64,000 bases of DNA from Bacteroidales bacterium (GCA_022482545.1 JAKVOZ010000007.1:1-64000); one strand, 5' to 3'. Positions 2 through 27,306 are shown, counted from the first letter of the stretch. A program made the numbers and translations. The notes: generated from the letters alone by a model not told the origin.

Positions 2-274
2 TTACCTGTTTTTTTTTTCTTTTATAACTATTGAATTTATTTCTTGATGATATTGATTTAAATCACAATTAATATTTATTGTTACAATTGTATATAATAT
101 TAAAGTATCATTAGTAGATAATTTATGTGTAATTAAATCTTGTGTTGGTGGTTGATTATAATATAATTTATAATTATTATTGCTATATAATAATTCATAG
201 TTATAATTAGACACTTGTGCTTTTAATTGTATAATTTCAAATAAAATTATTATGATAAAAAATACTTTTTTCAT
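2..274 (-). CDS. Small exported protein, candidate immunity partner of RHS tip 1
   Basis: A 90-residue protein with a clear signal peptide (MKK, a hydrophobic stretch rich in Ile, then LKAQ before the predicted cleavage at about residue 20); the rest is polar and rich in Asn and Tyr. I do not recognise the family. It starts 9 bp after the stop codon of the RHS-tip gene on the same strand, so it is very likely co-transcribed with it. The other RHS tips here are also followed by a small exported product, which suggests by position alone that this protein neutralises the putative metallopeptidase tip in the periplasm. The stop codon lies at positions 2-4, so the gene is complete. The immunity role is inference. 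Confidence 0.6.
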   Translation of the reverse strand: MKKVFFIIIILFEIIQLKAQVSNYNYELLYSNNNYKLYYNQPPTQDLITHKLSTNDTLILYTIVTININCDLNQYHQEINSIVIKEKKNR

Positions 275-283
275 ATTTATTTT

Positions 284-1303
284 TTATTTTGTTAATTTAT
301 TTAAAAATCCAACAAAATTTTTTATTAAAGGATTATATGAAATCTCTTTTATTTCATAATTATGTTCTCTATATAGTTCACCTTTTGTATTTCCTAACAA
401 AAAAGTATTTATAGCTTTTTCATAATTCCCTTGAGAATATCCATTAAATAATAAATCATTCATCGCTTTTTCATGTATTCTCCCAAATTCATTATCAACG
501 CCTGTTATATCAGAAGGACCACCACTATTATTATATAACGAATTAATTACTGATGAATATAAATATGCCTCAACTTCATTATTTACATTAGGTCCACATT
601 GTCCATTTTCATATTGGTAAGCATGAAATAACTCATGTGAAATTGTCAACAACGAAAGTTCATTATTCATATTAATTTTACCTCCATCTTTCCCTTCTAC
701 AAAACCAGCCGTTCCTTTTTCACTATTTTTATTAGTTATATTATAAATATTAGTACTCCCAACTAATTCAGAAATAACAGTTTCCCCTTCTTTTATACTA
801 TTCATTATATTTAATGTTTCTATTGTACTTTTTATGAATTTATCTTCACCTCCATATTTTAGATCTTTCCCATAATTATATGTTTGTCCATCATTTCCTT
901 TAATTACAATATCTTCCCCATTCGGGTCAATAAGTTTTACTGGATTATTAGCACAATAAACATATGGTGAAAGGTTAGGGTATTTATCACTCATTGGGTC
1001 TACACTTATCCAACTTATCTTCTCACTATCATAATATCTCGCTCCATAATAATTATATCCACTCTCTGCGTCTTTCTCCTTCCCATTAAACTTATATACT
1101 CCCAAATTTCTCTCTGCTGGCATCAAATCAAAATATTGCAAATCTACCCAATCTTCGCCATATGGCAGATAATTCAATGTCTGTGTTACTTTTCCATCAC
1201 CATTCGTTACGTATGATGCACTCCCTAAATGGTCTGAATGATAATAGAATGCCGGCTCCTTTTCTTTCTTTCCTATATAGTTATATGACTTCTTTCTTCC
1301 CAT
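284..1303 (-). CDS. Free-standing RHS core with zincin-type toxin tip
   Basis: A 339-residue protein. Residues 17-131 are a typical RHS-repeat-associated core (YYHSDHLGSASYVTNGDGK, YGARYYDSE, SVDPMSDKYPNLSPYVYC, DPNGEDI). After the DPNGED boundary the sequence becomes unique and carries HELFH at residues 223-227, a HExxH zinc-peptidase signature, with possible third ligands E243/E245 in NNEVEAY. There are no upstream YD/RHS repeats, no shell domains and no signal peptide: the gene begins just before the core with its own ATG and a -7 box 28 bp upstream. In the RHS family the variable C-terminal tip is usually the toxin. The small exported protein downstream is the likely antidote. This could be a silent donor cassette for a full-length RHS gene elsewhere rather than a delivered protein. 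Confidence 0.85.
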   Translation of the reverse strand: MGRKKSYNYIGKKEKEPAFYYHSDHLGSASYVTNGDGKVTQTLNYLPYGEDWVDLQYFDLMPAERNLGVYKFNGKEKDAESGYNYYGARYYDSEKISWISVDPMSDKYPNLSPYVYCANNPVKLIDPNGEDIVIKGNDGQTYNYGKDLKYGGEDKFIKSTIETLNIMNSIKEGETVISELVGSTNIYNITNKNSEKGTAGFVEGKDGGKINMNNELSLLTISHELFHAYQYENGQCGPNVNNEVEAYLYSSVINSLYNNSGGPSDITGVDNEFGRIHEKAMNDLLFNGYSQGNYEKAINTFLLGNTKGELYREHNYEIKEISYNPLIKNFVGFLNKLTK

Positions 1304-1330
1304 ATTATTAATTTAACTATTTATTCGCCA

Positions 1331-1338
1331 CAAAGATA
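1331..1338 (-). promoter_or_regulatory. -7 element of RHS tip 1
   Basis: On the minus strand the sequence reads TATCTTTG, matching the Bacteroidetes TAnnTTTG -7 box, 28 bp before the ATG. No convincing TTTG -33 box is seen at the usual spacing. The surrounding GCCACAAAG context is shared with the RHS tip 2 promoter and with the block at 20360. Confidence 0.55.
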
Positions 1339-1465
1339 TGATTTTCTTTTAATATATAAATAAAATCAATAATAATATTTTATTAAATTTATTTTTTATA
1401 ATTCCGCCAACGGGTATATTTATTATTTGTTATAAAATAATATCAAACTTACTTAATTTAAATAT

Positions 1466-2116
1466 CTATTGCTTATATAATAATCCATTTATATTAGGAC
1501 TAGTATAAACATTCTTCCCTTGAACTCTCATTATATAGTAGTCATTAATTCTAACATTTGTTGATGACTCTATAGTAGGTGAATAATTATTTTCATAATA
1601 TGGAAATATTATCATATTATATTCCTTCCCAATTTGAATATGTTCTCCATCTACTATATTTTTATTAGTGTCAATTGTCAATAAATTAAAATAGATATCA
1701 TCGCATAGGTTCGCACATGTATTACACTTTAATTTTAAAGTATAACTATTTATTTTTTTTATTGTATCATTTATTATCATATAAGAATACTTATTTGTAT
1801 CAATACAAAACACTAAAAACTCTCCAATTATACTATCTCTGACCTTACTATTGTTTTTTCCACATTCTCTAATAACTTTACCTGTGCTATCTTTTTGTGG
1901 AGGATTATCATAATAATATCTTAGTGTACTTTCAATTTCTTTTTGAGTACATTCTTCATATACTGGTATTATTTCTGACCTAAAAGTATATTCACAATCT
2001 GTTATACTTTTACCGTCAATACAAATAAATTTTCTACTATTATTACAAGACATACTTATAAACAAAACAATAAGCATGCAAACAATAAAAATACATTTAT
2101 TTTTTATCTTCTTCAT
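1466..2116 (-). CDS. Lipoprotein, candidate immunity partner of RHS tip 2
   Basis: A 216-residue lipoprotein if translated from the second in-frame ATG (MKKIKNKCIF), which fits a signal peptide better than the upstream ATG at 2143. The lipobox is FISMSC, so Cys24 would be lipidated. The mature protein has several cysteines (for example CNTCANLC) and no family I recognise. The start lies inside the last 20 bases of the RHS tip gene, an overlap that implies translational coupling. An envelope-anchored partner directly behind a putative peptidase toxin suggests immunity outside the cytoplasm. That role is inferred from position and localisation only. Confidence 0.65.
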   Translation of the reverse strand: MKKIKNKCIFIVCMLIVLFISMSCNNSRKFICIDGKSITDCEYTFRSEIIPVYEECTQKEIESTLRYYYDNPPQKDSTGKVIRECGKNNSKVRDSIIGEFLVFCIDTNKYSYMIINDTIKKINSYTLKLKCNTCANLCDDIYFNLLTIDTNKNIVDGEHIQIGKEYNMIIFPYYENNYSPTIESSTNVRINDYYIMRVQGKNVYTSPNINGLLYKQ

Positions 2117-3146
2117 TTTTATAATTATATCTGTATTCCCCATTTATTTTACATATACTATTTATATCAATTTCTCTTCTTTCCCGTATATGATAACCTT
2201 CATCTCCACATGGCTGATTAACATAATCTCCCCAAAAGCCATTATTATTTGCTTCTTTATGAGCATTATTGTAATAATTATTATTATCAAAACCAGGAGA
2301 GACCGTACTCTTTGTCCTTAGTGCATCTTGTCCTCCATAATAAGACTCCATAACTTCGTGTATCATATATCCTCCAACATAATTATCTATTGCTTTATCG
2401 CATTGTTCTAATCTTTCAGGATATACATATTGACTTGTCGCTTGTTGTTTACTTTTTTCATCCCAATAACTCCCCATAAAACCTCCTCCTACAGAATTTC
2501 CATTAAATTTACCATACATTAAATCTGAATTTATATCACTTTTTTTATCATCCGGCACATTAAAAGTTGTAACATTAACCCTAATAGATTTATCATTTAT
2601 TGCTTTTCTCAATTTTCTCCCTTTTAAATTAAATAAAAATATTTTGCCAACAACAGATAACTGACCTGTATTAACATCTCTTTTTAATTTTACATTCGCG
2701 GCCTTTTGTAACTGATCCAGTGCTTCTTTGGGACATTCTCCATTAATAAAAATTTCTTCCCCATCTGGATCAACTAAAATAACCGGATTATCGGCACAAT
2801 AAACATAAGGACTTAGATTAGGGTATTTGTCACTCATTGGATCTACACTTAACCAACTTATCTTCTCACTATCATAATATCTTGCTCCATAATAATTATA
2901 GCCACTTTCTTGGTCTTTCTCCTTCCCATTAAACTTATATACTCCCAAATTATTCTCTGCTGGCATCAAATCAAAATATTGCAAATCTACCCAATCTTCT
3001 CCATATGGTAAATAATTCAATGTTTGTGTTATTTTACCATCACCATTCGTTACATACGACGCACTTCCTAAATGGTCTGAATGATAATAAAACGCTGGCT
3101 CATTTTCATTCTTTCCCATATAGTTATATGACTTATTTATTCCCAT
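2097..3146 (-). CDS. Free-standing RHS core with putative metallopeptidase tip
   Basis: A 349-residue protein. Its first 131 residues are nearly identical to those of the RHS gene at 284-1303 (same HSDHLGSASY, NGKEKD, YGARYYDSEKISW and DPMSDKYP motifs). The sequence diverges completely after the DPDGEEI boundary. The unique tip contains MIHEVMESYYGG at residues 261-272 and AHKEA at 295-299. HEVME resembles a zinc site in which the second His of HExxH is replaced, with H296 as a possible third ligand, so the metallopeptidase assignment is tentative. There is no signal peptide or shell domain. The lipoprotein gene downstream overlaps the 3' end. Core identity in two adjacent genes with unrelated tips shows modular exchange. 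Confidence 0.83.
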   Translation of the reverse strand: MGINKSYNYMGKNENEPAFYYHSDHLGSASYVTNGDGKITQTLNYLPYGEDWVDLQYFDLMPAENNLGVYKFNGKEKDQESGYNYYGARYYDSEKISWLSVDPMSDKYPNLSPYVYCADNPVILVDPDGEEIFINGECPKEALDQLQKAANVKLKRDVNTGQLSVVGKIFLFNLKGRKLRKAINDKSIRVNVTTFNVPDDKKSDINSDLMYGKFNGNSVGGGFMGSYWDEKSKQQATSQYVYPERLEQCDKAIDNYVGGYMIHEVMESYYGGQDALRTKSTVSPGFDNNNYYNNAHKEANNNGFWGDYVNQPCGDEGYHIRERREIDINSICKINGEYRYNYKNEEDKK

Positions 3147-3162
3147 AAGATAACTTAATTAT

Positions 3163-3232
3163 TTTGCCACAAAGGTAGTTATTTATTTTGATTTAACAGA
3201 AAGTATTGTTATTTTATTTTGATTTGATGATA
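3163..3232 (-). repeat. RHS-cassette promoter block, copy 1
   Basis: About 70 bp running from GCCACAAAGGTA through two ATTTTGATTT segments is repeated with high identity at about 20353-20420. This copy holds the -7 box TACCTTTG (minus strand, 3170-3177) in front of RHS tip 2. The second copy stands before an orphan exported gene. The block appears to be the mobile or duplicated upstream end of an RHS cassette. Confidence 0.6.
3170..3177 (-). promoter_or_regulatory. -7 element of RHS tip 2
   Basis: TACCTTTG on the minus strand, 23 bp before the ATG at 3146. At the -33 position (19-bp spacing) the sequence is TCTG, one base off TTTG. Confidence 0.55.
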
Positions 3233-3328
3233 CACAACTATGCTAAACTTTCTTTATTTTATTATATGTATAGAATTGAAAATAGAATATAATAGAACTA
3301 TTTTAATTTGAAAAAATATTTAATCGTG

Positions 3329-3388
3329 CAAAAAAGCGGGTAAAAATCTTTATAATTATATTAATATATTGACTTTTAACCCGCTTTG
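3329..3388 (-). terminator. Rho-independent terminator after tRNA-Gln
   Basis: On the minus strand AAAGCGGGT pairs with ACCCGCTTT across an AT-rich loop of about 37 nt, followed by a T run. It begins immediately after the tRNA 3' end. Confidence 0.75.
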
Positions 3389-3459
3389 TTGTCCTATCTA
3401 GATTCGAACTAGAAACAACTGAACCAAAATCAGTCGTGTTACCATTACACCATAGGACA
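3389..3459 (-). tRNA. tRNA-Gln (anticodon UUG)
   Basis: A 71-nt cloverleaf: acceptor TGTCCTA pairs with TAGGACA, anticodon stem ACTGA/TCAGT encloses loop TTTTGGT (anticodon TTG, reading CAA), and the T arm contains CTAGTTCGAATCTAG. The discriminator base is A. CCA is not encoded. It has its own promoter and terminator, so it is transcribed as a single unit. Confidence 0.95.
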
Positions 3460-17870: not shown

Positions 17871-18028
17871 TTAAATACAATAAACATAAGGTGAAAGTGA
17901 TGGGTATTTATCACTCATTGGGTCTACACTTAACCAACTTATCTTCTCACTATCATAATATCTCGCTCCATAATAATTATATCCTGTTTCTGCGTCTTTC
18001 TCCTTGCCATTAAACTTATATACTCCTT
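17871..18028 (-). pseudogene. Displaced RHS core fragment
   Basis: The minus strand encodes GVYKFNGKEKD, ETGYNYYGARYYDSE and SVDPMSDKYPSLSPYVYC followed by Ile and a stop, which corresponds to the middle of the RHS core (about residues 68-117 of the 0.3-3.1 kb genes). It has no start codon, no N-terminal core and no tip. It lies directly behind the exported gene at 18044 on the same strand, as the beginning of a further cassette would. Its last 45 bases (ATGAGTGATAAATACCC onward) repeat those that begin the truncated RHS gene at 19361. It looks like a scar of recombination between RHS cores. Confidence 0.8.
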
Positions 18029-18043
18029 TCAAAAACCGTCAAA

Positions 18044-18604
18044 TTACCTTATACTATTACAATCTAATAAAAAAGAAGCATTCTTTTTTGAATAAAAAAT
18101 ATTTCTTTGAGATATTTTTCCTCTTGTATTGAAAAAAAGCTTAATATAACTACCATTTTCTATTATCATATTTTCAAAATAAAAAACATATACATCGCAA
18201 TGATACTTATTAATCATAATATATATACTACCTTGATCTATACCATAATAATTCTTAAATTTAAATTCTCCTATTAAACATTCCCCATAATAATTAATCA
18301 ATTTCTCTATTATTCTAAATGAAAAATTTGTGCTATCAAAATATTCCGAAGGAATATCTTGAGACACAAAAGATTTATAATAATTCATATCATGGAGTCT
18401 TATTGTATCAATATTAACTTTGCCATAATCTATAAAATCTTTTAAAAAACAACATTCATCAACACAATTACTATCTATAGCTTTACAAATCCATGGATTT
18501 AATTTTATTTTTTCTTGTGCTTTAATCATTTCTTGTCCTATATCAAACAATATTAAAACAACAAAACATATTTTTAATAATATTTTATCACACATTATCC
18601 CCAT
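18044..18604 (-). CDS. Exported protein, candidate immunity partner of the transglycosylase tip
   Basis: A 186-residue protein from ATG 18604, which lies 7 bp after the stop of the RHS tip gene; an upstream start would run deep into that gene. A signal peptide is visible (MGIMCDKILLKICFVVLILFD... ending near IKAQ). The mature part contains a Cys pair region (CKAIDSNCVDECC) and no recognisable family. The position directly behind a peptidoglycan-lyase-like tip, with export to the periplasm where that tip would act, makes it a good candidate for the cognate inhibitor. This is inference from order and localisation. Confidence 0.62.
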   Translation of the reverse strand: MGIMCDKILLKICFVVLILFDIGQEMIKAQEKIKLNPWICKAIDSNCVDECCFLKDFIDYGKVNIDTIRLHDMNYYKSFVSQDIPSEYFDSTNFSFRIIEKLINYYGECLIGEFKFKNYYGIDQGSIYIMINKYHCDVYVFYFENMIIENGSYIKLFFNTRGKISQRNIFYSKKNASFLLDCNSIR

Positions 18605-18611
18605 ATTTTTA

Positions 18612-19361
18612 TTAATAACTAATTGAGTTTTTAACCATATTTCTAACACATTCTCCATAATTTTTAACTCCGTTTCCATTATATCTATCAGTCGCAATTG
18701 ACCATCCCATAAACGTTGTTGAATTCCTAAGAGTTCGTAAACCTTTTTGATATAATATACCTATACCAGCATGAATAGATTGATATGGAGTTGCACCTCC
18801 TTTTCGTTGTAATCCGAACTGTTCTTTTGATTTATTCCAATCATTAGATTTCTTTGAATACCATACATTCGCTTGCATAATATCTGAACTCGCATCATTT
18901 AAACCTCTTGAAGGTGCAGTTCCCATAACTGTTTCTTTCATAATAATTGCCTTTACTAACGTTGGATCTAAATTTGGAATAGTTCTTGAATTATCTATTG
19001 ATTGACCATTTGTATATTTCGGTGTTTCTCCTTTATTTTTATATTGATTAAAATAAGAAACTTCAGCTGCAATTAAATAATCATATTTTTGATATTTAGA
19101 ATCAGTCTCTTTTTCTATCAAATTTGGCATTGGAGCCTCTATCCATCCCATACCTCCACAACCATTAAGGTTTGTCATTTGAATTCTATCTGCATTTATA
19201 TCTGTAACATAAGTTTTATTAATTTTATCATCTTTTATTCGTTTAACTTCTGTACCTCCTTCACCCATATACACAATATCTTCCCCGTCTTGGTCAACTA
19301 AAATAACTGGATTATCTGCACAATAAACATAAGATGAAAGTGATGGGTATTTATCACTCAT
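18612..19361 (-). CDS. Core-truncated RHS tip with lytic transglycosylase-like domain
   Basis: A 249-residue ORF starting in the middle of the RHS core (MSDKYPSLSSYVYCADNPVI, then DQDGEDI), so the first 100 core residues are missing. The C-terminal 130 residues read like a soluble lytic transglycosylase: LDPTLVKAIIMKET with probable catalytic Glu143, SSDIMQANVWY in place of the usual MQI segment, SIHAGIGIL, and ATDRYNGNGVKNYGECV matching the family's YNGG...Y...V end. Such domains cleave the glycan strands of peptidoglycan. A -7 box lies 41 bp upstream, so the gene could still be expressed, but without shell or core it lacks any visible delivery module. It could be an active remnant, a donor cassette, or dead. 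Confidence 0.75.
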   Translation of the reverse strand: MSDKYPSLSSYVYCADNPVILVDQDGEDIVYMGEGGTEVKRIKDDKINKTYVTDINADRIQMTNLNGCGGMGWIEAPMPNLIEKETDSKYQKYDYLIAAEVSYFNQYKNKGETPKYTNGQSIDNSRTIPNLDPTLVKAIIMKETVMGTAPSRGLNDASSDIMQANVWYSKKSNDWNKSKEQFGLQRKGGATPYQSIHAGIGILYQKGLRTLRNSTTFMGWSIATDRYNGNGVKNYGECVRNMVKNSISY

Positions 19362-19483: not shown

Positions 19484-20224
19484 TTACTCCTTTCGCTTCA
19501 TTATAACAAAATGATTGTAAAAAATATTTTCATCAAATGTTTTTATCTCATTATACAAATAATCCTTATAGTTTATTTTTAAATTGTTTATTTCATTTAA
19601 AATATCTTTCTTATCATATATTAGACATTTTATTATATAATATTTGTATAATGTATGATGTGATGTTCTATCTGCATTAGTAAATTTCAAATCCTCTATG
19701 CTTTCATTTAATTTCTTTTCATTAATGGCTTCTTGTAAATCACAATATGGATAATCATGTAGATTAAAACATATGTCCATAAAATCTATTAGAGTTTTTA
19801 TATACTTATTTCTCTTTGCAATATCTCCTTGTGAATTTGTTAAAAGTATTTTCAATTTCAACAAACAATAAGTATAACCAAAATCATCAGATAATAACAG
19901 ATTGATATCTTTATTTTTTTTTAATTTACTCAACTCATTAATTCCTTCTTTATATAATCCTAATAATTCATAACATTTAATTTTATAGATTAGTGCAAAA
20001 CTTACAGAATTAATATCACAATCATTATCTATTATAAAATCACATTGTTTTATTGTCAAATAAACATAGTTACTATCTTTCTTTTTATTATACAAATCCA
20101 TATAATAACTTATTTTTTCTGTTAAAGAATAACAAGTATCTTCTTTCCCTTCATTATTATTTTGTCCACATATATTATTACTTAAAATAACACATAAAAT
20201 AACTATCAATACTATTTTTTTCAT
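19484..20224 (-). CDS. Orphan exported protein behind an RHS-type promoter block
   Basis: A 246-residue protein with signal peptide (MKKIVLIVILCVILSNNICGQ). The mature part is helical with a TPR-like feel (SFALIYKIKCYELLGLYKEGINEL; FGYTYCLLKLKILL) and several cysteines. I do not recognise the family. There is no tip gene upstream; instead the 70-bp RHS-cassette promoter block found before RHS tip 2 stands 130 bp upstream. This suggests an immunity-type gene whose toxin has been lost, or one kept for protection against kin. The gene is complete. Confidence 0.6.
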   Translation of the reverse strand: MKKIVLIVILCVILSNNICGQNNNEGKEDTCYSLTEKISYYMDLYNKKKDSNYVYLTIKQCDFIIDNDCDINSVSFALIYKIKCYELLGLYKEGINELSKLKKNKDINLLLSDDFGYTYCLLKLKILLTNSQGDIAKRNKYIKTLIDFMDICFNLHDYPYCDLQEAINEKKLNESIEDLKFTNADRTSHHTLYKYYIIKCLIYDKKDILNEINNLKINYKDYLYNEIKTFDENIFYNHFVIMKRKE

Positions 20225-20352
20225 GGTCTTGTTATACTAATTAATTTAATTAAAAATTTTGGTGATTGATTTGTTAATTTTTATACTGTTCATCACCTAT
20301 ATTTTTTATTTTAATCATTGCTTTTATGTCATTAATGTAATTAATCATTTAT

Positions 20353-20420
20353 TTCGCCACAAAGGTAATTATTTATTTTGATTTAAAAGAAAGATTGTTC
20401 TTTTATTTTGATTTGATTAT
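20353..20420 (-). repeat. RHS-cassette promoter block, copy 2
   Basis: Closely matches 3163-3232, including the GCCACAAAGGTA start and both ATTTTGATTT segments. Together with the -7 box (20360-20367) and the palindromic array at 20441 it accounts for most of the gene-free stretch 20225-20627; nothing else is evident there. Confidence 0.6.
20360..20367 (-). promoter_or_regulatory. -7 element of the orphan exported gene
   Basis: TACCTTTG on the minus strand within the repeated RHS promoter block, 135 bp before the ATG at 20224. Confidence 0.5.
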
Positions 20421-20440
20421 AGAAAATATACTGCGAAATC

Positions 20441-20561
20441 CAGTACAACCATTTTCTTTTTGCGATGTACTGCCAGTACATTAGCAATGTATTATCAGTA
20501 CAACAGCAATGTATTGTCAGTACATTAGCAATGTACTGGCAGTACAACAGCAATGTATTTT
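20441..20561. repeat. 22-bp phased palindromic array (type AGTACATT-AGC-AATGTACT)
   Basis: CAGTAC occurs at 20441, then after 33 bp at 20474, 20496, 20518 and 20540 in an exact 22-bp period. Units alternate between a TTAGCAA centre and a CAACAGCAA centre; the 20518 unit forms a perfect 8-bp stem around AGC. The array is homologous to the one at 51303-51455, with the same alternation. It lies between the 3' end of the giant exported protein gene and the promoter block of the next gene. A fading 21-bp repeat (ATTCTA at 20573 and 20594) follows. Confidence 0.8.
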
Positions 20562-20627
20562 ATTCTTTCTTTATTCTATTAAAATGGATTGCTATTCTAA
20601 CAAAATAGAATGAAGATTCATTCATCT

Positions 20628-23600
20628 TTAATACAAAAGCATCAAAGTACCTTTCTTTTTTAGTTTCTTATTTGGAGAATCTATTGTATAGTACTCAATA
20701 TAATAAATATATGCTCCTTGTTGACAAAGATTGCCTTTATATCTTCCGTCCCAACCTATCTTTATATCATCTGTCTCAAACACTTTCTCTCCCCAACGGT
20801 CATATATTTTAAAACTACTCAACCTTATATCTTTCTCATCTGTATAAGCATAAAAAACATTATTAGTCTTATCGGCTGGCGTGAAAGCATTTGGAACATA
20901 AACATGTGTTGGATCATTAACAACAAGATGCAAAACCATACTACTATCACAACCATGTATTGTTTGAAGATAATGTTCATAATAACCTGTATTGTTTTCA
21001 TCAAAACCATAACCTCTATATGTTTCTCCTGCCTTAATATCTGCCTCTATTGTATCTCTATATGAAGGATTAACTGTTAAATGCAAGATAATAGTACTAT
21101 CACAACCATTAATATCTTGAACAACTCTTGTATAATTACCTGTTGTATCAACATAAAAATCATTAGAATTATATACATCTCCTTGACATATATTCGCATC
21201 AATGTTGATTGTCTTCTTTGGATTAACTGTCAATTTCAAAGTTACTACACTATCACAACCATTTGTTGTTTGCAAAGAATGGACATAATACCCTGTCCTA
21301 TTTTCATTAAATCCATTTAATGTATATGTTTCTCCTTGACATATACTTGCTTTTATTGTATCATTATATTTTGGATTAATATTTAGCCTTAGAACGGTTA
21401 TACTATCGCAACCATTAATACTTTGAAGTGTATCTTTATATGTTCCTTGTTGTGTAAGAGTAAATCCATGAAAATTATATCTTTCACCAGGGCAAATACT
21501 TGCATTTATCACTTGTTTATATGAAGGATTAACTGTTAAATCCAATACCACCAAACTATCGCAACCTCCTTGTGATTGAAGCAGTCTTGGATGATAACCT
21601 GCATTCGTTTCATGAAAACCAAAAGCATCATACATCTCTCCCTGGCATATTGTGGCACGTATTGTATCGTTATATGGCAAGTTTAATTTTAGTTTTAATG
21701 TTATTATACTATCACAACCATTAACCACACTATGTAATGTATCTGTATATGTTCCTGCTTGATTAAGTATCATTCCATGAAAATTATATGTTCCTCCTTG
21801 GCATATTGTTGTTTCAATCGTACGGTTATAAACAATTGCAGTTAAATCAAGATTAACTACACTATCGCAACCATGTATTGATTGAAGTGTATCGTGATAT
21901 ATACCTGTTTGTCCAACATTAAATCCATTGTCAGTATAGTTTTGTCCCCAGCATATACTTGCTGTTATTGTTGTATCATACGTTGGATAAACAATAAGAA
22001 CAAGTTTTTTAACACTATCGCAACCATATATTGATTGAACAGTATCATAATATATTCCAGAAGCACTTTGATTAAATCCATTAAGATTATATGTTTCTCC
22101 TTGGCATATCTCTGCTAATATGTCTGTATGATATGTTGGATAAACCTTTAAACTTAATGTTACTACACTATCACAACCATAAATTGATTGAAGATGTTTT
22201 GTATAGTTTCCTGCAAGATGTTCATTGAATCCATTTAATGTATATGTTTGATTTTCGCATATATCAGCAAAAATTGTATCATTATAGTTTTGATGAACTG
22301 TAAGATGAAGGGTTTTAACACTATCGCAACCATTTATTGTTTGAAGTGTATCATAATATATTCCTGTTGCACTTTCAGTAAATCCATTAAGATTATACGT
22401 TTGTCCTTGACATATATCTGCATATATATGTTGATTATATGTAGGATTAACAAGCAAATCAAGTATTAATATACTATCACAACCATTTGTTGTTTGCAAT
22501 GTATCATAATATATTCCACTTGTAGTTTGATTAAATCCATGCAAATTATATGTTTGTCCTTGGCATATTGTTGCTCTTATTGTATCTTTATAAATAGGAT
22601 TAACCTTTAAATTCAAATGAATAATACTATCACAACCATTTATTGTCTGCAAAGAATGAGTATAAACACCGGTCAAATTATTATCAAACCCATTTAATGT
22701 ATATCTTTCATTTTGACATATTGTTGCATTTATTGTTGTATCATATATTGGATTAACTATAAGATTCAATACTACTATACTATCACAGCCAAGATAACTT
22801 GTTAATGTATCTTGATATCTCCCTGCCACATTTTCATTAAATCCATTTAAGTTATATGTTTGTCCTTGGCATATACTTGCATCTATTGTATCTGTTATTT
22901 GGTTCCTTACTTGCAAATTTAATCTTACTGTACTATCACAACCATTTATTGTTTGCAAAGAACGCGTATAAACTCCTGTAACATTTTTATCAAATCCATT
23001 ATCTGTATATCTTCCTTCCGAACATATAATAGCATTAATTGTTGTATCATATATTGGATAAACATATAGATGTAGTGTTTGAGTACTATCGCAACCATTT
23101 ATTGTTTGAAGTGTATCTTGATATATCTTAGTTTGTTCTGCTATAAAATTAAAACTATGCTTATTATATTGCTGTCCTTTACATATTGAATCATACAATA
23201 CCATATCATACTTTGGATTAACCGTCAAATTCAAAGTTACTATACTATCACAACCATTTATTGTTTGCAAAGTATCTGTATATATTCCTGCCAATGTTTG
23301 ATTAAATCCATTCAAACTATACGTCTGTCCTTGGCATATTGTATCTTTTATCTCTGTATTTTTATTCTCATGAACTATAAGATTCAAAACTACTATACTA
23401 TCACAGCCAAGATAACTTGTTAATGTATCTTGATATCTTCCTGCCACATTTTCATTAAATCCATTTAAGTTATATGTTTGTCCTTGGCATATACTTGCAT
23501 TTATTGTATCTGTTATTTGGTTCCTTACTTGCAAATTCAATCTTACTGTACTATCACAACCATTTATTGTTTGCAAAGAACGCGTATAAACTCCTGTAAC

Positions 23601-26600
23601 ATTTTTATCAAATCCATTTAATGTATATCTTTGTCCATTACATATTTGAGCAAAGATTGTTGTATCGTATCTTGGATTAACAACTAAATGCAGTGTTTGA
23701 GTACTATCACATCCTTTTATTGAATGAAGTGTATTAGTATAAGTAAATGTTCCTGCTATATTTGTTGTTAAATTAAAACTATGCTTATTGTAAATAATAC
23801 CTTGGCATATTGTATCCTTTATATCATTATGATAAATAGGATTAACTGTAAGATTTAATATTTGTATATTATTGCAACCATTAATCGTTTGTGTTGTGTC
23901 TATGTATGTATGCAAACCAGCAGTGTTTAATGTATCAAGAACAAGCCCATGACTATTATATATTCCTCCTTGACAAATTTGTTCATTAATAACGTTTAAA
24001 TATATTGGATTAACTGTAAGATGAAGTATTTGTATACTATCGCAACCGTTTATTGTTTGCAAAGTATCTATATAATTATGTATGCCTGCTGTATTCAAAG
24101 TGTCTATATGAAAACTATGATTATTATATATTTCATTTTGGCATATTTGTTCATTAATTGTATTTGTATATGATGGATAAACATAGAGTTTTAATACTTG
24201 AACACTATCACAACCTTTTATTGTTTGCAAAGTATCTGCATATTCATTTAATCCTGAATGCTTAGCAATAAAATCAAAACTATGATTATTATATCTTTCA
24301 TTTTGGCATATTGTATCATTTATCGTATGATTATAAATAGGATTAACTGTAAGATGAAGATTTTGTATACTATCACAATTACAACCATTTTGTGTCTTTA
24401 AGGTATCAACATAAACATTTGTTCCAACAACATTTGTTGATGTTATATTAAAACTATGGTTATTATAAACACTATTTTGGCATATTGTATCATATATTGT
24501 ATGATTATAAATAGGATTAATTTTAAGATTCAATACAACTATACTATCACAACCGAGATAACTTGTTAATGTATCTTGATACCTTCCTGCTACATTTTCA
24601 TTAAATCCATTTAAGTTATATGTTTGTCCTTGGCATATACCTGCATTTATTGTATCTGTTATTTGGTTCCTTACTTGCAAATTCAATCTTACTATACTAT
24701 CACAACCATTTATTGTTTGCAAAGAACGCGTATAAACTCCCGTAACATTTTTATCAAATCCATTTAATGTGTATCTTTGTCCATTACATATTTGAGCAAA
24801 GATTGTTGTATCATATCTTGGATTAACTTTAATATTCAACGTTTGAATACTATCACAACCTTTTATTGTTTGAAATGTATCTACTTTTACTATACTTGTT
24901 TGAGCAAGGAAAGTAAAACCATATTTATTATATGTTTCTCCTTGGCATATCGTATCGTTTATATGTACATCATATTTTGGATTAACAATAACATTCAATG
25001 TTCTTATACTATCACAATTACATCCATTAGTTGTTTTTAAAGTGTCGTTATATATTCCTGTCGTTGCTATATTATGAAAATCATTATCATTATATATTTC
25101 TCCTTGACATATATTAGTATCTATTATTATCTTATAAATAGGATTAACTGTAAGATGAAGTATTTGGATACTATCGCAACCTTTTATTGTTTGCAAAGTA
25201 TCTGTATATGTAAATGTTCCTGCATTATTTGCTATAATATTAAAACTATGTTTATTATATATCTTTCCTTGACATATTGTATCATTTATTATATTTTTAT
25301 AACTTGGTTTAATATGAAGATATATAACAAGATTACTATCACAACCATTTATTGTCTGAAAATGCTTGTCTATTTTTATACTTGTATCTGCTGTATTATT
25401 TATTGCTTGATAATTTAATGTATGCTCATTATATATTTGTCCTTGACATATTGTATCATATATTGTTTTGTTATAAATAGGATTAACTGTAAGATGAAGC
25501 GTTTGAATACTATCGCAACCTTTTGTTGTTTGGAGTGTATCTTTATATATAAATGTCCCAACAACACTCGTTGTATTTATATTAAAACTATGATTGTTAT
25601 AAATACTATTTTGACATATTGTATCATATATCGTTTCATTATAAATAGGATTAACTGTAAGATGAAGTATTTGAATACTATCGCAACCTTTTATTGTTTG
25701 AAGAGTATCTGCTTTTACTAAACTTATTTGAGCAAGAAAATTAAAACCATACTTATTATATGTTTCTCCTTGACATATTGTATCATATATAGTATTCCTA
25801 TAAACAGGATTAACGTGGAGTTTAACAGTTATCAAACTATCACAATAATTAATAGTTTGATAATTATGATTTAGTGTTGTATCCACATTTTGTATTGCAT
25901 TATAATTTATTCCATGTTTATAATATATTTGTCCTTGGCATATTGTATCATATATAGTATCTCTATAAATAGGATTAACCTTTAAAATCAAAGTATGATT
26001 ATTTTTGCAACCATATTGTGTTGTTAAAGTTGTATCGTAGTATATTCCTGTTGTATCATAATTAACATTATTATGAGTAATATAGACATACGGATATGTT
26101 GAATTTCCTCTATATGAAGATGAATCTACCACATATCCAGTTGTTTGCCATTGATAATTACTTCCTTTACATTTAACATAGGTAGTAGTATCACTATAAT
26201 TTGGTTTAATTGATAAAATAAGATGTCTTGTAGTATGGCAACCACTTTCATAAGTAGAATAAATTGTTCCAGAAGAGGTTTGTGTTATATTATCTTCATA
26301 TGTAGTTTGACCTTGATAATCTAATGGAATAATAGAAAAACCATATCCTAAAAAATTCTTACCATTACACACATTTCCTCTTACAGTATCTATTCCATTA
26401 CGAAGTTTAATGATATTTAAAACAGACGAACTATCACAACCATTATATGTAAAATAGGGTCGTATTATAGAAATAGTATCTGTATTCATTACTGTATCAA
26501 CAGAAAAATCATTAAGATGATAACTTATACTATCATGACATACATAATAATTATATTGACTATAATAAGATTGTTTAACAAATAAATGCAATATCATTCT

Positions 26601-27236
26601 AAATTTACATCCATTAGTATCAATAGTAAATTCTCTATCTCCCGTTCTAACCTCATTAAAAGGTATACTTATACCATGACTATTATAATCTGTATATGTT
26701 TGACAAATAGTATCAAAATATTCAAACACATTTGTATCTCCTGCCATATTTCTAAACCTTGCCCATGCTGTATCATTTCTATAATCTTGATAAGATATAC
26801 AAGGAACATAGACATATAATGAATCTTTATTTGAATTATTTTTATCATATATATATATAGTTGATAATGGAGGAATAATAGAATAACAATATATTGATCT
26901 TAACAAAGTATTACCAAAAAAAACATAATCGCCTACATTTGTTATTGTGGCAGGTAATATTACAGACGTTAAAGCACTGCACCCATAAAAAGCACTATCT
27001 CCTACTGCATTTACTTTATAATACGTCCCATTATAATTAATACTATCCGGAATAACAACTGTTCCTGAATAACATGTTGGACTTTTTGTTACAGAAACCG
27101 TTGGTGGTGTTGATGAAGTTATGCTATAATATATATTTGTCCCACTACCATTTACAATATGAAAAGTTTGAGTTTTTGCCGATATTGAACATATCAAAAA
27201 AATTATAACTAAAAAAGATTGTATTTTATGCCACAT
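20628..27236 (-). CDS. Giant repeat protein with T9SS type B sorting domain
   Basis: A 2202-residue exported protein starting at ATG 27236; the longer ORF would begin at a TTG inside the promoter. Order: signal peptide (MWHKIQSFLVIIFLICSISA), a short BspA-type leucine-rich segment (about residues 60-120: GDSAFYGCSALTSVILP), about 230 residues of degenerate modules, then about 32 repeats of 50-58 residues, and a C-terminal gliding-motility-associated domain (VYVPNAFTPADKTNNVF, IYDRWGEKVFE, GAYIYYIEY) that directs export by the type IX system. Each repeat has two conserved Cys in ICQG.TYN.NGF and GCDS...LNL.VNP, a likely intradomain disulfide; the last repeat has lost the first Cys (IKAGETY). 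It is probably a surface filament or adhesin. Three 240-bp segments are nearly identical. Confidence 0.92.
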   Translation of the reverse strand: MWHKIQSFLVIIFLICSISAKTQTFHIVNGSGTNIYYSITSSTPPTVSVTKSPTCYSGTVVIPDSINYNGTYYKVNAVGDSAFYGCSALTSVILPATITNVGDYVFFGNTLLRSIYCYSIIPPLSTIYIYDKNNSNKDSLYVYVPCISYQDYRNDTAWARFRNMAGDTNVFEYFDTICQTYTDYNSHGISIPFNEVRTGDREFTIDTNGCKFRMILHLFVKQSYYSQYNYYVCHDSISYHLNDFSVDTVMNTDTISIIRPYFTYNGCDSSSVLNIIKLRNGIDTVRGNVCNGKNFLGYGFSIIPLDYQGQTTYEDNITQTSSGTIYSTYESGCHTTRHLILSIKPNYSDTTTYVKCKGSNYQWQTTGYVVDSSSYRGNSTYPYVYITHNNVNYDTTGIYYDTTLTTQYGCKNNHTLILKVNPIYRDTIYDTICQGQIYYKHGINYNAIQNVDTTLNHNYQTINYCDSLITVKLHVNPVYRNTIYDTICQGETYNKYGFNFLAQISLVKADTLQTIKGCDSIQILHLTVNPIYNETIYDTICQNSIYNNHSFNINTTSVVGTFIYKDTLQTTKGCDSIQTLHLTVNPIYNKTIYDTICQGQIYNEHTLNYQAINNTADTSIKIDKHFQTINGCDSNLVIYLHIKPSYKNIINDTICQGKIYNKHSFNIIANNAGTFTYTDTLQTIKGCDSIQILHLTVNPIYKIIIDTNICQGEIYNDNDFHNIATTGIYNDTLKTTNGCNCDSIRTLNVIVNPKYDVHINDTICQGETYNKYGFTFLAQTSIVKVDTFQTIKGCDSIQTLNIKVNPRYDTTIFAQICNGQRYTLNGFDKNVTGVYTRSLQTINGCDSIVRLNLQVRNQITDTINAGICQGQTYNLNGFNENVAGRYQDTLTSYLGCDSIVVLNLKINPIYNHTIYDTICQNSVYNNHSFNITSTNVVGTNVYVDTLKTQNGCNCDSIQNLHLTVNPIYNHTINDTICQNERYNNHSFDFIAKHSGLNEYADTLQTIKGCDSVQVLKLYVYPSYTNTINEQICQNEIYNNHSFHIDTLNTAGIHNYIDTLQTINGCDSIQILHLTVNPIYLNVINEQICQGGIYNSHGLVLDTLNTAGLHTYIDTTQTINGCNNIQILNLTVNPIYHNDIKDTICQGIIYNKHSFNLTTNIAGTFTYTNTLHSIKGCDSTQTLHLVVNPRYDTTIFAQICNGQRYTLNGFDKNVTGVYTRSLQTINGCDSTVRLNLQVRNQITDTINASICQGQTYNLNGFNENVAGRYQDTLTSYLGCDSIVVLNLIVHENKNTEIKDTICQGQTYSLNGFNQTLAGIYTDTLQTINGCDSIVTLNLTVNPKYDMVLYDSICKGQQYNKHSFNFIAEQTKIYQDTLQTINGCDSTQTLHLYVYPIYDTTINAIICSEGRYTDNGFDKNVTGVYTRSLQTINGCDSTVRLNLQVRNQITDTIDASICQGQTYNLNGFNENVAGRYQDTLTSYLGCDSIVVLNLIVNPIYDTTINATICQNERYTLNGFDNNLTGVYTHSLQTINGCDSIIHLNLKVNPIYKDTIRATICQGQTYNLHGFNQTTSGIYYDTLQTTNGCDSILILDLLVNPTYNQHIYADICQGQTYNLNGFTESATGIYYDTLQTINGCDSVKTLHLTVHQNYNDTIFADICENQTYTLNGFNEHLAGNYTKHLQSIYGCDSVVTLSLKVYPTYHTDILAEICQGETYNLNGFNQSASGIYYDTVQSIYGCDSVKKLVLIVYPTYDTTITASICWGQNYTDNGFNVGQTGIYHDTLQSIHGCDSVVNLDLTAIVYNRTIETTICQGGTYNFHGMILNQAGTYTDTLHSVVNGCDSIITLKLKLNLPYNDTIRATICQGEMYDAFGFHETNAGYHPRLLQSQGGCDSLVVLDLTVNPSYKQVINASICPGERYNFHGFTLTQQGTYKDTLQSINGCDSITVLRLNINPKYNDTIKASICQGETYTLNGFNENRTGYYVHSLQTTNGCDSVVTLKLTVNPKKTINIDANICQGDVYNSNDFYVDTTGNYTRVVQDINGCDSTIILHLTVNPSYRDTIEADIKAGETYRGYGFDENNTGYYEHYLQTIHGCDSSMVLHLVVNDPTHVYVPNAFTPADKTNNVFYAYTDEKDIRLSSFKIYDRWGEKVFETDDIKIGWDGRYKGNLCQQGAYIYYIEYYTIDSPNKKLKKKGTLMLLY
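22761..23000 (-). repeat. Intragenic 240-bp duplication, copy 1
   Basis: Encodes a pair of Cys repeats (QITDTI...LGCDSIVVLNL preceded by GVYTRSLQTINGCDS). Nearly identical DNA recurs at about 23380-23619 and 24526-24765, whereas neighbouring repeats differ widely, indicating recent segmental duplication or gene conversion. Confidence 0.75.
23380..23619 (-). repeat. Intragenic 240-bp duplication, copy 2
   Basis: Second copy of the segment described at 22761, differing at only a few bases. Confidence 0.75.
24526..24765 (-). repeat. Intragenic 240-bp duplication, copy 3
   Basis: Third copy of the segment described at 22761; also carries the unusual GCGTATAAACTCC stretch shared by all copies. 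Confidence 0.75.
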
Positions 27237-27275
27237 ATTTTCACGATTTAAGTCATTAATCCTTATTACATTGTG

Positions 27276-27306
27276 CAAAATTATACAACATATTTGAATT
27301 ACACAA
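27276..27306 (-). promoter_or_regulatory. Promoter of the giant exported protein gene
   Basis: Minus strand TTTG (27303-27306), 19-bp spacer, TAATTTTG (27276-27283), 40 bp before the ATG at 27236. It shows that the long ORF's apparent TTG start is promoter sequence. Confidence 0.7.

Follow-up and report, generated by a model that had tools for sequence, protein, structure and literature searches.

Free-standing RHS core-tip cassettes with their own promoters and exported partners in a Bacteroidales genome: possible orphan toxin modules kept for envelope immunity

Why should an RHS core and its variable tip stand as a gene of their own, with a dedicated start codon and a promoter-like box, next to a gene for an exported protein and with no parent RHS gene nearby? 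The question is raised by two genes at the beginning of a 64,000-nucleotide stretch of DNA from a Bacteroidales bacterium, referred to below as the window. The window comprises the first 64 kb of contig C7 (77.8 kb), its base 1 being the contig end (C7:1), and the source MAG consists of 1.88 Mb in 23 contigs and is 94% complete; the relatives named below were found by sequence and are mostly uncultured Bacteroidales MAGs. The explanation considered the best here, and held to be fairly probable, is that these genes are orphan polymorphic-toxin modules turned into autonomous operons, in which the exported partners are the immunity proteins and the tips are at most a store.

RHS cassettes of the window

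As described in the initial annotation, both genes consist of an ATG, an RHS core of ~131 residues and a unique tip (Table 1), the tips having ~210-219 residues; the YD/RHS repeat shell is absent, the ORFs starting a few residues before the core. Residues 45-129 match TIGR03696 (Rhs_assc_core) with E-values of 2.7e-18 and 9.4e-17, over the 32.5-bit cut-off, and in both proteins this domain, with its DPxG motif, is followed by the variable tip. The two cores are 89% identical, and the tips are unrelated. Upstream of each ATG lies TA[TC]CTTTGTGGC, with TAnnTTTG, the Bacteroidetes -7 consensus (PMC7366714), at 1331-1338 and 3170-3177. No signal peptide was seen, by inspection, in the short core-tip proteins. 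The partner gene of cassette 1 begins ~10 nt past the stop codon of tip 1, and that of cassette 2 most likely starts at 2116 (by inspection; the ORF is open from 2143), giving a 20-nt overlap with the tip stop. Their earlier description as a small exported protein and a lipoprotein stands, the latter as a probable one.

Table 1. Coordinates of the RHS-related features of the window and of the two-TM protein copies found elsewhere in the genome
Feature	Coordinates	Strand	Remarks
Partner of cassette 1	2..274	-	90 aa; signal peptide (MKKVFFIIIILFEIIQLKA-Q); stop codon complete at contig end
Cassette 1 (339 aa)	284..1303	-	Free-standing RHS core ~911-1303 and tip 284-913
-7 box region of cassette 1	1327..1338	-	TATCTTTGTGGC
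Partner of cassette 2	1466..2116	-	Signal peptide; imperfect lipobox SMS-C; lipoprotein probable
Cassette 2 (349 aa)	2097..3146	-	Free-standing RHS core ~2754-3146 and tip 2097-2756
Dispersed promoter block copy before cassette 2	3147..3250	-	TACCTTTGTGGC at 3166-3177
RHS core fragment (remnant)	17874..18026	-	
Exported partner of headless tip	18044..18697	-	True start probably internal
Headless RHS tip	18612..19361	-	Last ~30 core residues only, without full header; classic-style orphan
246-aa exported protein	19484..20224	-	Promoter block upstream, without core or tip; candidate orphan immunity gene
Dispersed promoter block copy and upstream palindromic repeat	20349..20590	-	
Two-TM protein, copy 1	L090:1939-2151		
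Two-TM protein, copy 2	L029:11223-11429		
Two-TM protein, copy 3	L089:1728-1919		
Two-TM protein, copy 4	L091:2431-2619		
Two-TM protein, copy 5	C2:27581-27787		

Tip 1 is predicted to be an HExxH zinc metallopeptidase of the Peptidase_M91-like type with a zincin fold. It contains HELFH, with HEL[FS]H in four homologues, and its Pfam score for Peptidase_M91, 24.3, lies just under the cut-off of 25. The structure model (pLDDT 72.7, pTM 0.77) has an M4 metalloprotease as its best Foldseek match (probability 0.97, E 0.01) and aligns with zincins with a VIA Z of up to 8.8 over 99 residues; the fold is silent on the substrate. Homologous tips occur in cassettes of relatives. Tip 2 matches the C-terminus of a full-length RHS protein from Chitinophagales (L108; 1451 aa, exported) with an E-value of 5e-10, HEV[ML]E[SA]Y being conserved, and in that genome, too, an exported partner comes next; the structure model of tip 2, made from two sequences, reached a pLDDT of 31 only. 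Among the family cassettes the recognised tip families are Peptidase_M91 (6), Toxin-JAB1 (5), Peptidase_M23 (2), Ntox44 and DUF6973.

A second, broken RHS site lies at 17.9-20.6 kb, where the headless tip retains its core fragment at 19278-19361. A lytic transglycosylase assignment for the tip part (18612-19277), based on a motif impression, was dropped, as Pfam, NCBIfam and solved structures gave no support. Adjoining this site is a gene for a 2216-aa repetitive protein (20628-27278, minus strand) with a secretion-type signal at its N-terminus and, by inspection, a gliding-motility/type IX-like C-terminal region (VPNAFTPADK...). It is also worth mentioning that a tRNA-Gln gene (3388-3459, minus strand) is indeed present beside cassette 2, as pointed out earlier, but this setting is not general and the proximity is probably incidental: the 16 kb around the cassette of contig C2 contain no tRNA, and tRNA proximity as a mobile-element landmark was dropped.

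Five cassettes and twelve promoter copies in one genome

The two cassettes do not form the isolated pair that they appeared to be; five full core-tip genes are present in the MAG (two on C7, designated C7a and C7b, and one each on C1, C2 and C8), along with three RHS core fragments, and they belong to a genome- and family-wide pattern. All five have one common layout and are intact ORFs of 321-349 aa in an AT-rich genome. The DNA common to them extends from upstream of the ATG to the core end. Those of C1, C2 and C8 lie inside contigs amid housekeeping genes, each with its own promoter, and in these three the exported partner starts within the tip stop codon (4-nt overlap). This anatomy of promoters and starts favours the earlier view that the cassettes are separate transcription units, which they would be by prediction. 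Compared in pairs, the five cores have dN/dS values of 0.12-0.22 (dS 0.23-0.56), which indicates that the detached cores are kept as protein, although recombination with an intact parent could contribute. In the C1 cassette the header reads ATGGAAAGAACG followed by ATAGCAGATAACTATATAGG, and the latter is found in the middle of the reading frame of the broken shell remnant of C8; thus, ATAGCAGATAACTATATAGG marks the point at which a leader with promoter and start was fused to the parent core.

The absence of a parent gene from the window, noted earlier, says little alone, since base 1 is a contig end, and further core fragments do occur at the second site. The genome search proposed in the initial annotation extended this absence to the whole assembly: neither a full-length parent nor an SpvB-RHS N-terminus was found, though the absent ~6% of the genome could hold one. 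Besides the five cassettes and the core fragments, it yielded only two broken shell pieces, C8:8099-8929 and C1:245091-245426; an RHS_repeat match on C4 belongs to an unrelated exported 330-aa protein.

Upstream of the C1, C2 and C7b cassettes there is a block of ~80-100 bp ending in TA[CT]CTTTGTGGC, of which C8 retains only the last ~45 bp and C7a has a diverged version. The pattern AAATAAATAAYTAYCTTTGTGGC occurs in 12 copies in the genome (at most 1 mismatch) and in none in the reversed control; four copies precede RHS cassettes and eight lie directly before genes for small exported proteins, lipoproteins or membrane proteins. A G028 cassette has a partner homologous to the product of the exported gene on C14 (E 1.5e-29), and a G014 cassette has one homologous to the C17 product (E 7.6e-13); C14 and C17 are the only ones of the eight promoter-driven non-RHS loci for which a cassette-partner homologue was demonstrated. 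On C13 a 41-codon remnant of header and core, MERMKLHNYIGMKNHETYYNYYGTRY..., comes after the promoter, and two exported proteins come next. The C13, C14 and C17 loci look like cassettes that have lost the tip and retained the promoter and the immunity gene. The occurrence of the shared promoter on tip-less partner-type genes suggests that immunity expression, and not just the storage of toxins, is its main use. The toxin-immunity reservoir suggested earlier agrees with the toxin-family tip 1 and with the co-inheritance of partners described below, but is shifted by the tip-less genes towards immunity expression.

In 13 other genomes of the genus no copy of the block was found at up to 2 mismatches, the single 3-mismatch match being in G003; as the design recurs with other promoters (see below), the block is species-specific. 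Palindromic GTACTG-type repeats upstream of several block copies were considered as an attachment site and dropped, because GTACTG...CAGTAC-type palindromes are present at dozens of other sites of the genome (query L028:8367-8700, positions 69-230). In five places a two-TM protein of 63-70 aa (MNIKDLIWGIVSLIVG...) takes the place of the tip (Table 1); it is the first gene under the promoter block in four of the five copies, with an exported gene next in three of those. This family was found in the own genome only among the 61 searched, being absent from 60 relatives, and its topology is similar to that of Imm17, with no Imm17 match in Pfam.

Partners and parents in related genomes

A signal peptide or lipobox was detected in 40 of 51 partners of family cassettes and in 39 of 120 background ORFs (Fisher p 2.8e-8), with a heuristic detector and a start-choice rule that was similar for both sets. 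Homologous partner pairs adjoin homologous tips in seven cases out of seven (hypergeometric p ~1e-13; the pairs are not fully independent), and one co-inherited partner family connects the C2 cassette with those of G022 and G004. In view of this co-inheritance the likeliest reading of the partners is that of cognate immunity proteins of the envelope, and the envelope, as previously proposed, is the likely site of action of the tips. In the loci examined no homologues were found for the partners of C7a, C7b, C1 and C8, so the immunity role suggested for these four rests on their position and on the family pattern.

Parent genes missing from the assembly do exist in relatives. G027, whose core is 77% identical, and G011, from the same genus, encode RHS proteins of 3244 and 3235 aa, respectively, with N-terminal signal peptides; the giant protein of G027 contains SpvB and RHS repeats by Pfam, and SpvB profile matches were obtained in G011 as well as in G015, G017 and G022. 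An exported partner is located downstream of both giant genes. The signal peptides of the two giants imply that Sec-exported proteins are the carriers of RHS tips in this family. Directly upstream of both giant genes lies a gene for an exported protein of ~490 aa (L060:10371-11846 in G027 and L059:4340-5803 in G011), which in G027 has a Por_Secre_tail/type IX sorting domain; it may take part in the delivery of exported RHS toxins or be their partner at the surface.

The -7 boxes, like the partners, are a family trait. TAnnTTTG is present within 130 bp upstream of 23 of 44 family cassettes, the own genome included, compared with 3.5 expected from shuffles, mostly at -27 to -40, and in all five cassettes of the own genome, which exceeds what chance would give. 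In another genus, g2 (G014, G025 and G035), a common TCAAAATAAATnnGTAAnTTTGC is situated ~22 bp upstream of the start, and the long-header cassettes of these three genomes have a common N-terminus like MEHFAIHKLSKTQPSLL; two cassettes of G017 share MHTAKANSITIEP. Autonomous promoter-bearing cassettes are thus recurrent, and the promoter copies are lineage-specific. The g2 genomes (L071-L077, L080) carry 23-29 RHS cassette cores each, many of them in arrays and many with a short header and their own promoter; a search of G014, the one of the three covered, gave no SpvB gene.

Origin and possible use of the cassettes

In the proposed scheme, a promoter and a start codon would have been fused to the last ~125 core residues of a giant Sec-exported SpvB-RHS protein, and copies of this header of promoter, start and core would then have acquired different tips. 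By prediction, each unit gives one transcript for two coupled products, a core-tip protein without an export signal and an exported partner. The latter would shield the envelope from the same tip delivered by siblings or neighbours on a full-length exported RHS protein, while the home-made tip would stay in the cytoplasm, presumably harmless there, away from its envelope target, and would be no more than a stock from which a full-length gene could gain a tip by recombination. At several loci the tip would have been deleted, with the promoter keeping the immunity gene expressed. Judged from the arrangement of the genes, the likeliest use of the whole set is an expressed immunity repertoire in which putative toxin tips are carried along as a store.

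Several other explanations were weighed. The cassettes could be passive debris of a lost RHS gene, preserved by recent duplication and with hitch-hiking promoters, as the broken shell remnants of C8 and C1 and the fragmentary state of several cores would suggest; the five intact ORFs, the low dN/dS of the cores, the 4-nt overlap of partner and tip stop in three units and the family-wide retention of promoter boxes all speak against decay, which is considered unlikely. The break of contig C7 right beside cassette 1 would be accounted for by an ordinary RHS locus with displaced cassettes that the assembly broke up at the repeated cores; this explanation would also be in keeping with the incompleteness of the MAG and with the parents kept in some relatives. 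It would leave unexplained the three cassettes inside contigs, whose own promoters are needless for displaced cassettes behind one parent, and it appears rather improbable.

The short core-tip proteins might also be active mini-effectors, released or delivered by an unknown route or docking as plug plus toxin into the RHS shell of another gene. The header like MEHFAIHKLSKTQPSLL, kept in another genus, suggests that the short protein matters, but neither a signal peptide in these proteins nor a shell gene in the MAG was found, and such effectors are very unlikely. The most doubtful explanation is that of intracellular toxin-antitoxin modules with both proteins acting in the producing cell, as proposed for Salmonella Rhs tips (PMC7043789). 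The own promoter and start codon, as well as the Salmonella precedent of a conserved internal promoter, agree with it; however, a partner predicted to be exported would not neutralise a cytoplasmic toxin, and two family tips are M23-type peptidases, whose substrate is in the envelope. The placing of a signal-less tip and an exported partner in different compartments thus argues against such a role. It also sets the cassettes apart, by prediction, from type II toxin-antitoxin systems, in which the antitoxin is in the compartment of the toxin.

The preferred reading, that of orphan modules turned into autonomous operons, can be compared with several known systems. In the orphan rhs-CT/rhsI and cdiA-CT/cdiI modules (PMC3150448, PMC3967940), a detached tip with part of the conserved region is likewise followed by its cognate immunity gene. 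Orphan rhs-CT genes are usually without translation initiation signals, the orphan cdi module of E. coli EC93 shares a transcript with the main gene, and orphan immunity can be expressed and protective (PMC3150448, PMC3967940). The lack of an own start and promoter, usual though not obligatory for orphan modules, does not apply to the present cassettes, all five of which have an ATG and a -7 box, whereas the studied orphan lies behind the main gene and depends on the promoter of the latter; moreover, the Bacteroidales cassettes occupy several chromosomal sites and their partners are exported. In Salmonella, the conserved promoter P2 is situated inside the Rhs core, and from it an intracellular toxin-antitoxin pair is expressed, starting at a CTG codon (PMC7043789). 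One conserved promoter is common to many tips in both cases; the sharing of a promoter is thus already known in itself, the Salmonella one preceding no fewer than 50 toxins (PMC7043789). In the present genome, by contrast, the promoter lies upstream of a dedicated ATG header, the predicted destination of the partners is the envelope, and partner-type genes without a tip stand under the same promoter. The orphan immunity genes and acquired interbacterial defence clusters of gut Bacteroidales (PMC12247911, PMC10470768) are similar in comprising immunity genes without cognate toxins; those lie in gene clusters and counter T6SS effectors, whereas here the units are single and dispersed, stand under copies of one promoter and would counter exported RHS toxins. 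Finally, the available part of the survey of polymorphic toxin systems (PMC3482391) describes standalone RHS and TcdB/TcaC cassettes with an RHS core, exchangeable tips (metallopeptidase and others) and neighbouring immunity genes; in that part no repeated promoter-header is reported and the word periplasm is absent. The present cassettes differ from the known orphan modules and the Salmonella tips in having dedicated start headers at separate sites, partners predicted to reach the envelope, and copies of their promoter in front of partner-type genes without a tip.

A wider reading, regarded as possible yet tentative, is that of a dispersed immunity regulon built by promoter copying, in which the block, at no fewer than 12 sites, would commonly control tip-immunity pairs and tip-less immunity genes and would provide envelope defence against exported RHS toxins without a delivery protein of its own. 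In a bolder form of the regulon reading, the short core-tip proteins would load in trans into RHS shells.

If the reading as autonomous operons is true, displaced RHS tips have a third state, between a silent reservoir and an active toxin, namely that of autonomous expressed units whose benefit is immunity. The origin of orphan immunity then becomes testable as the retention of a promoter and the deletion of a tip, and the C13 locus looks like a step on that path. Testable as well would be whether uncultured Bacteroidales depend on envelope-located immunity to withstand exported RHS toxins, which have received less study than T6SS effectors.
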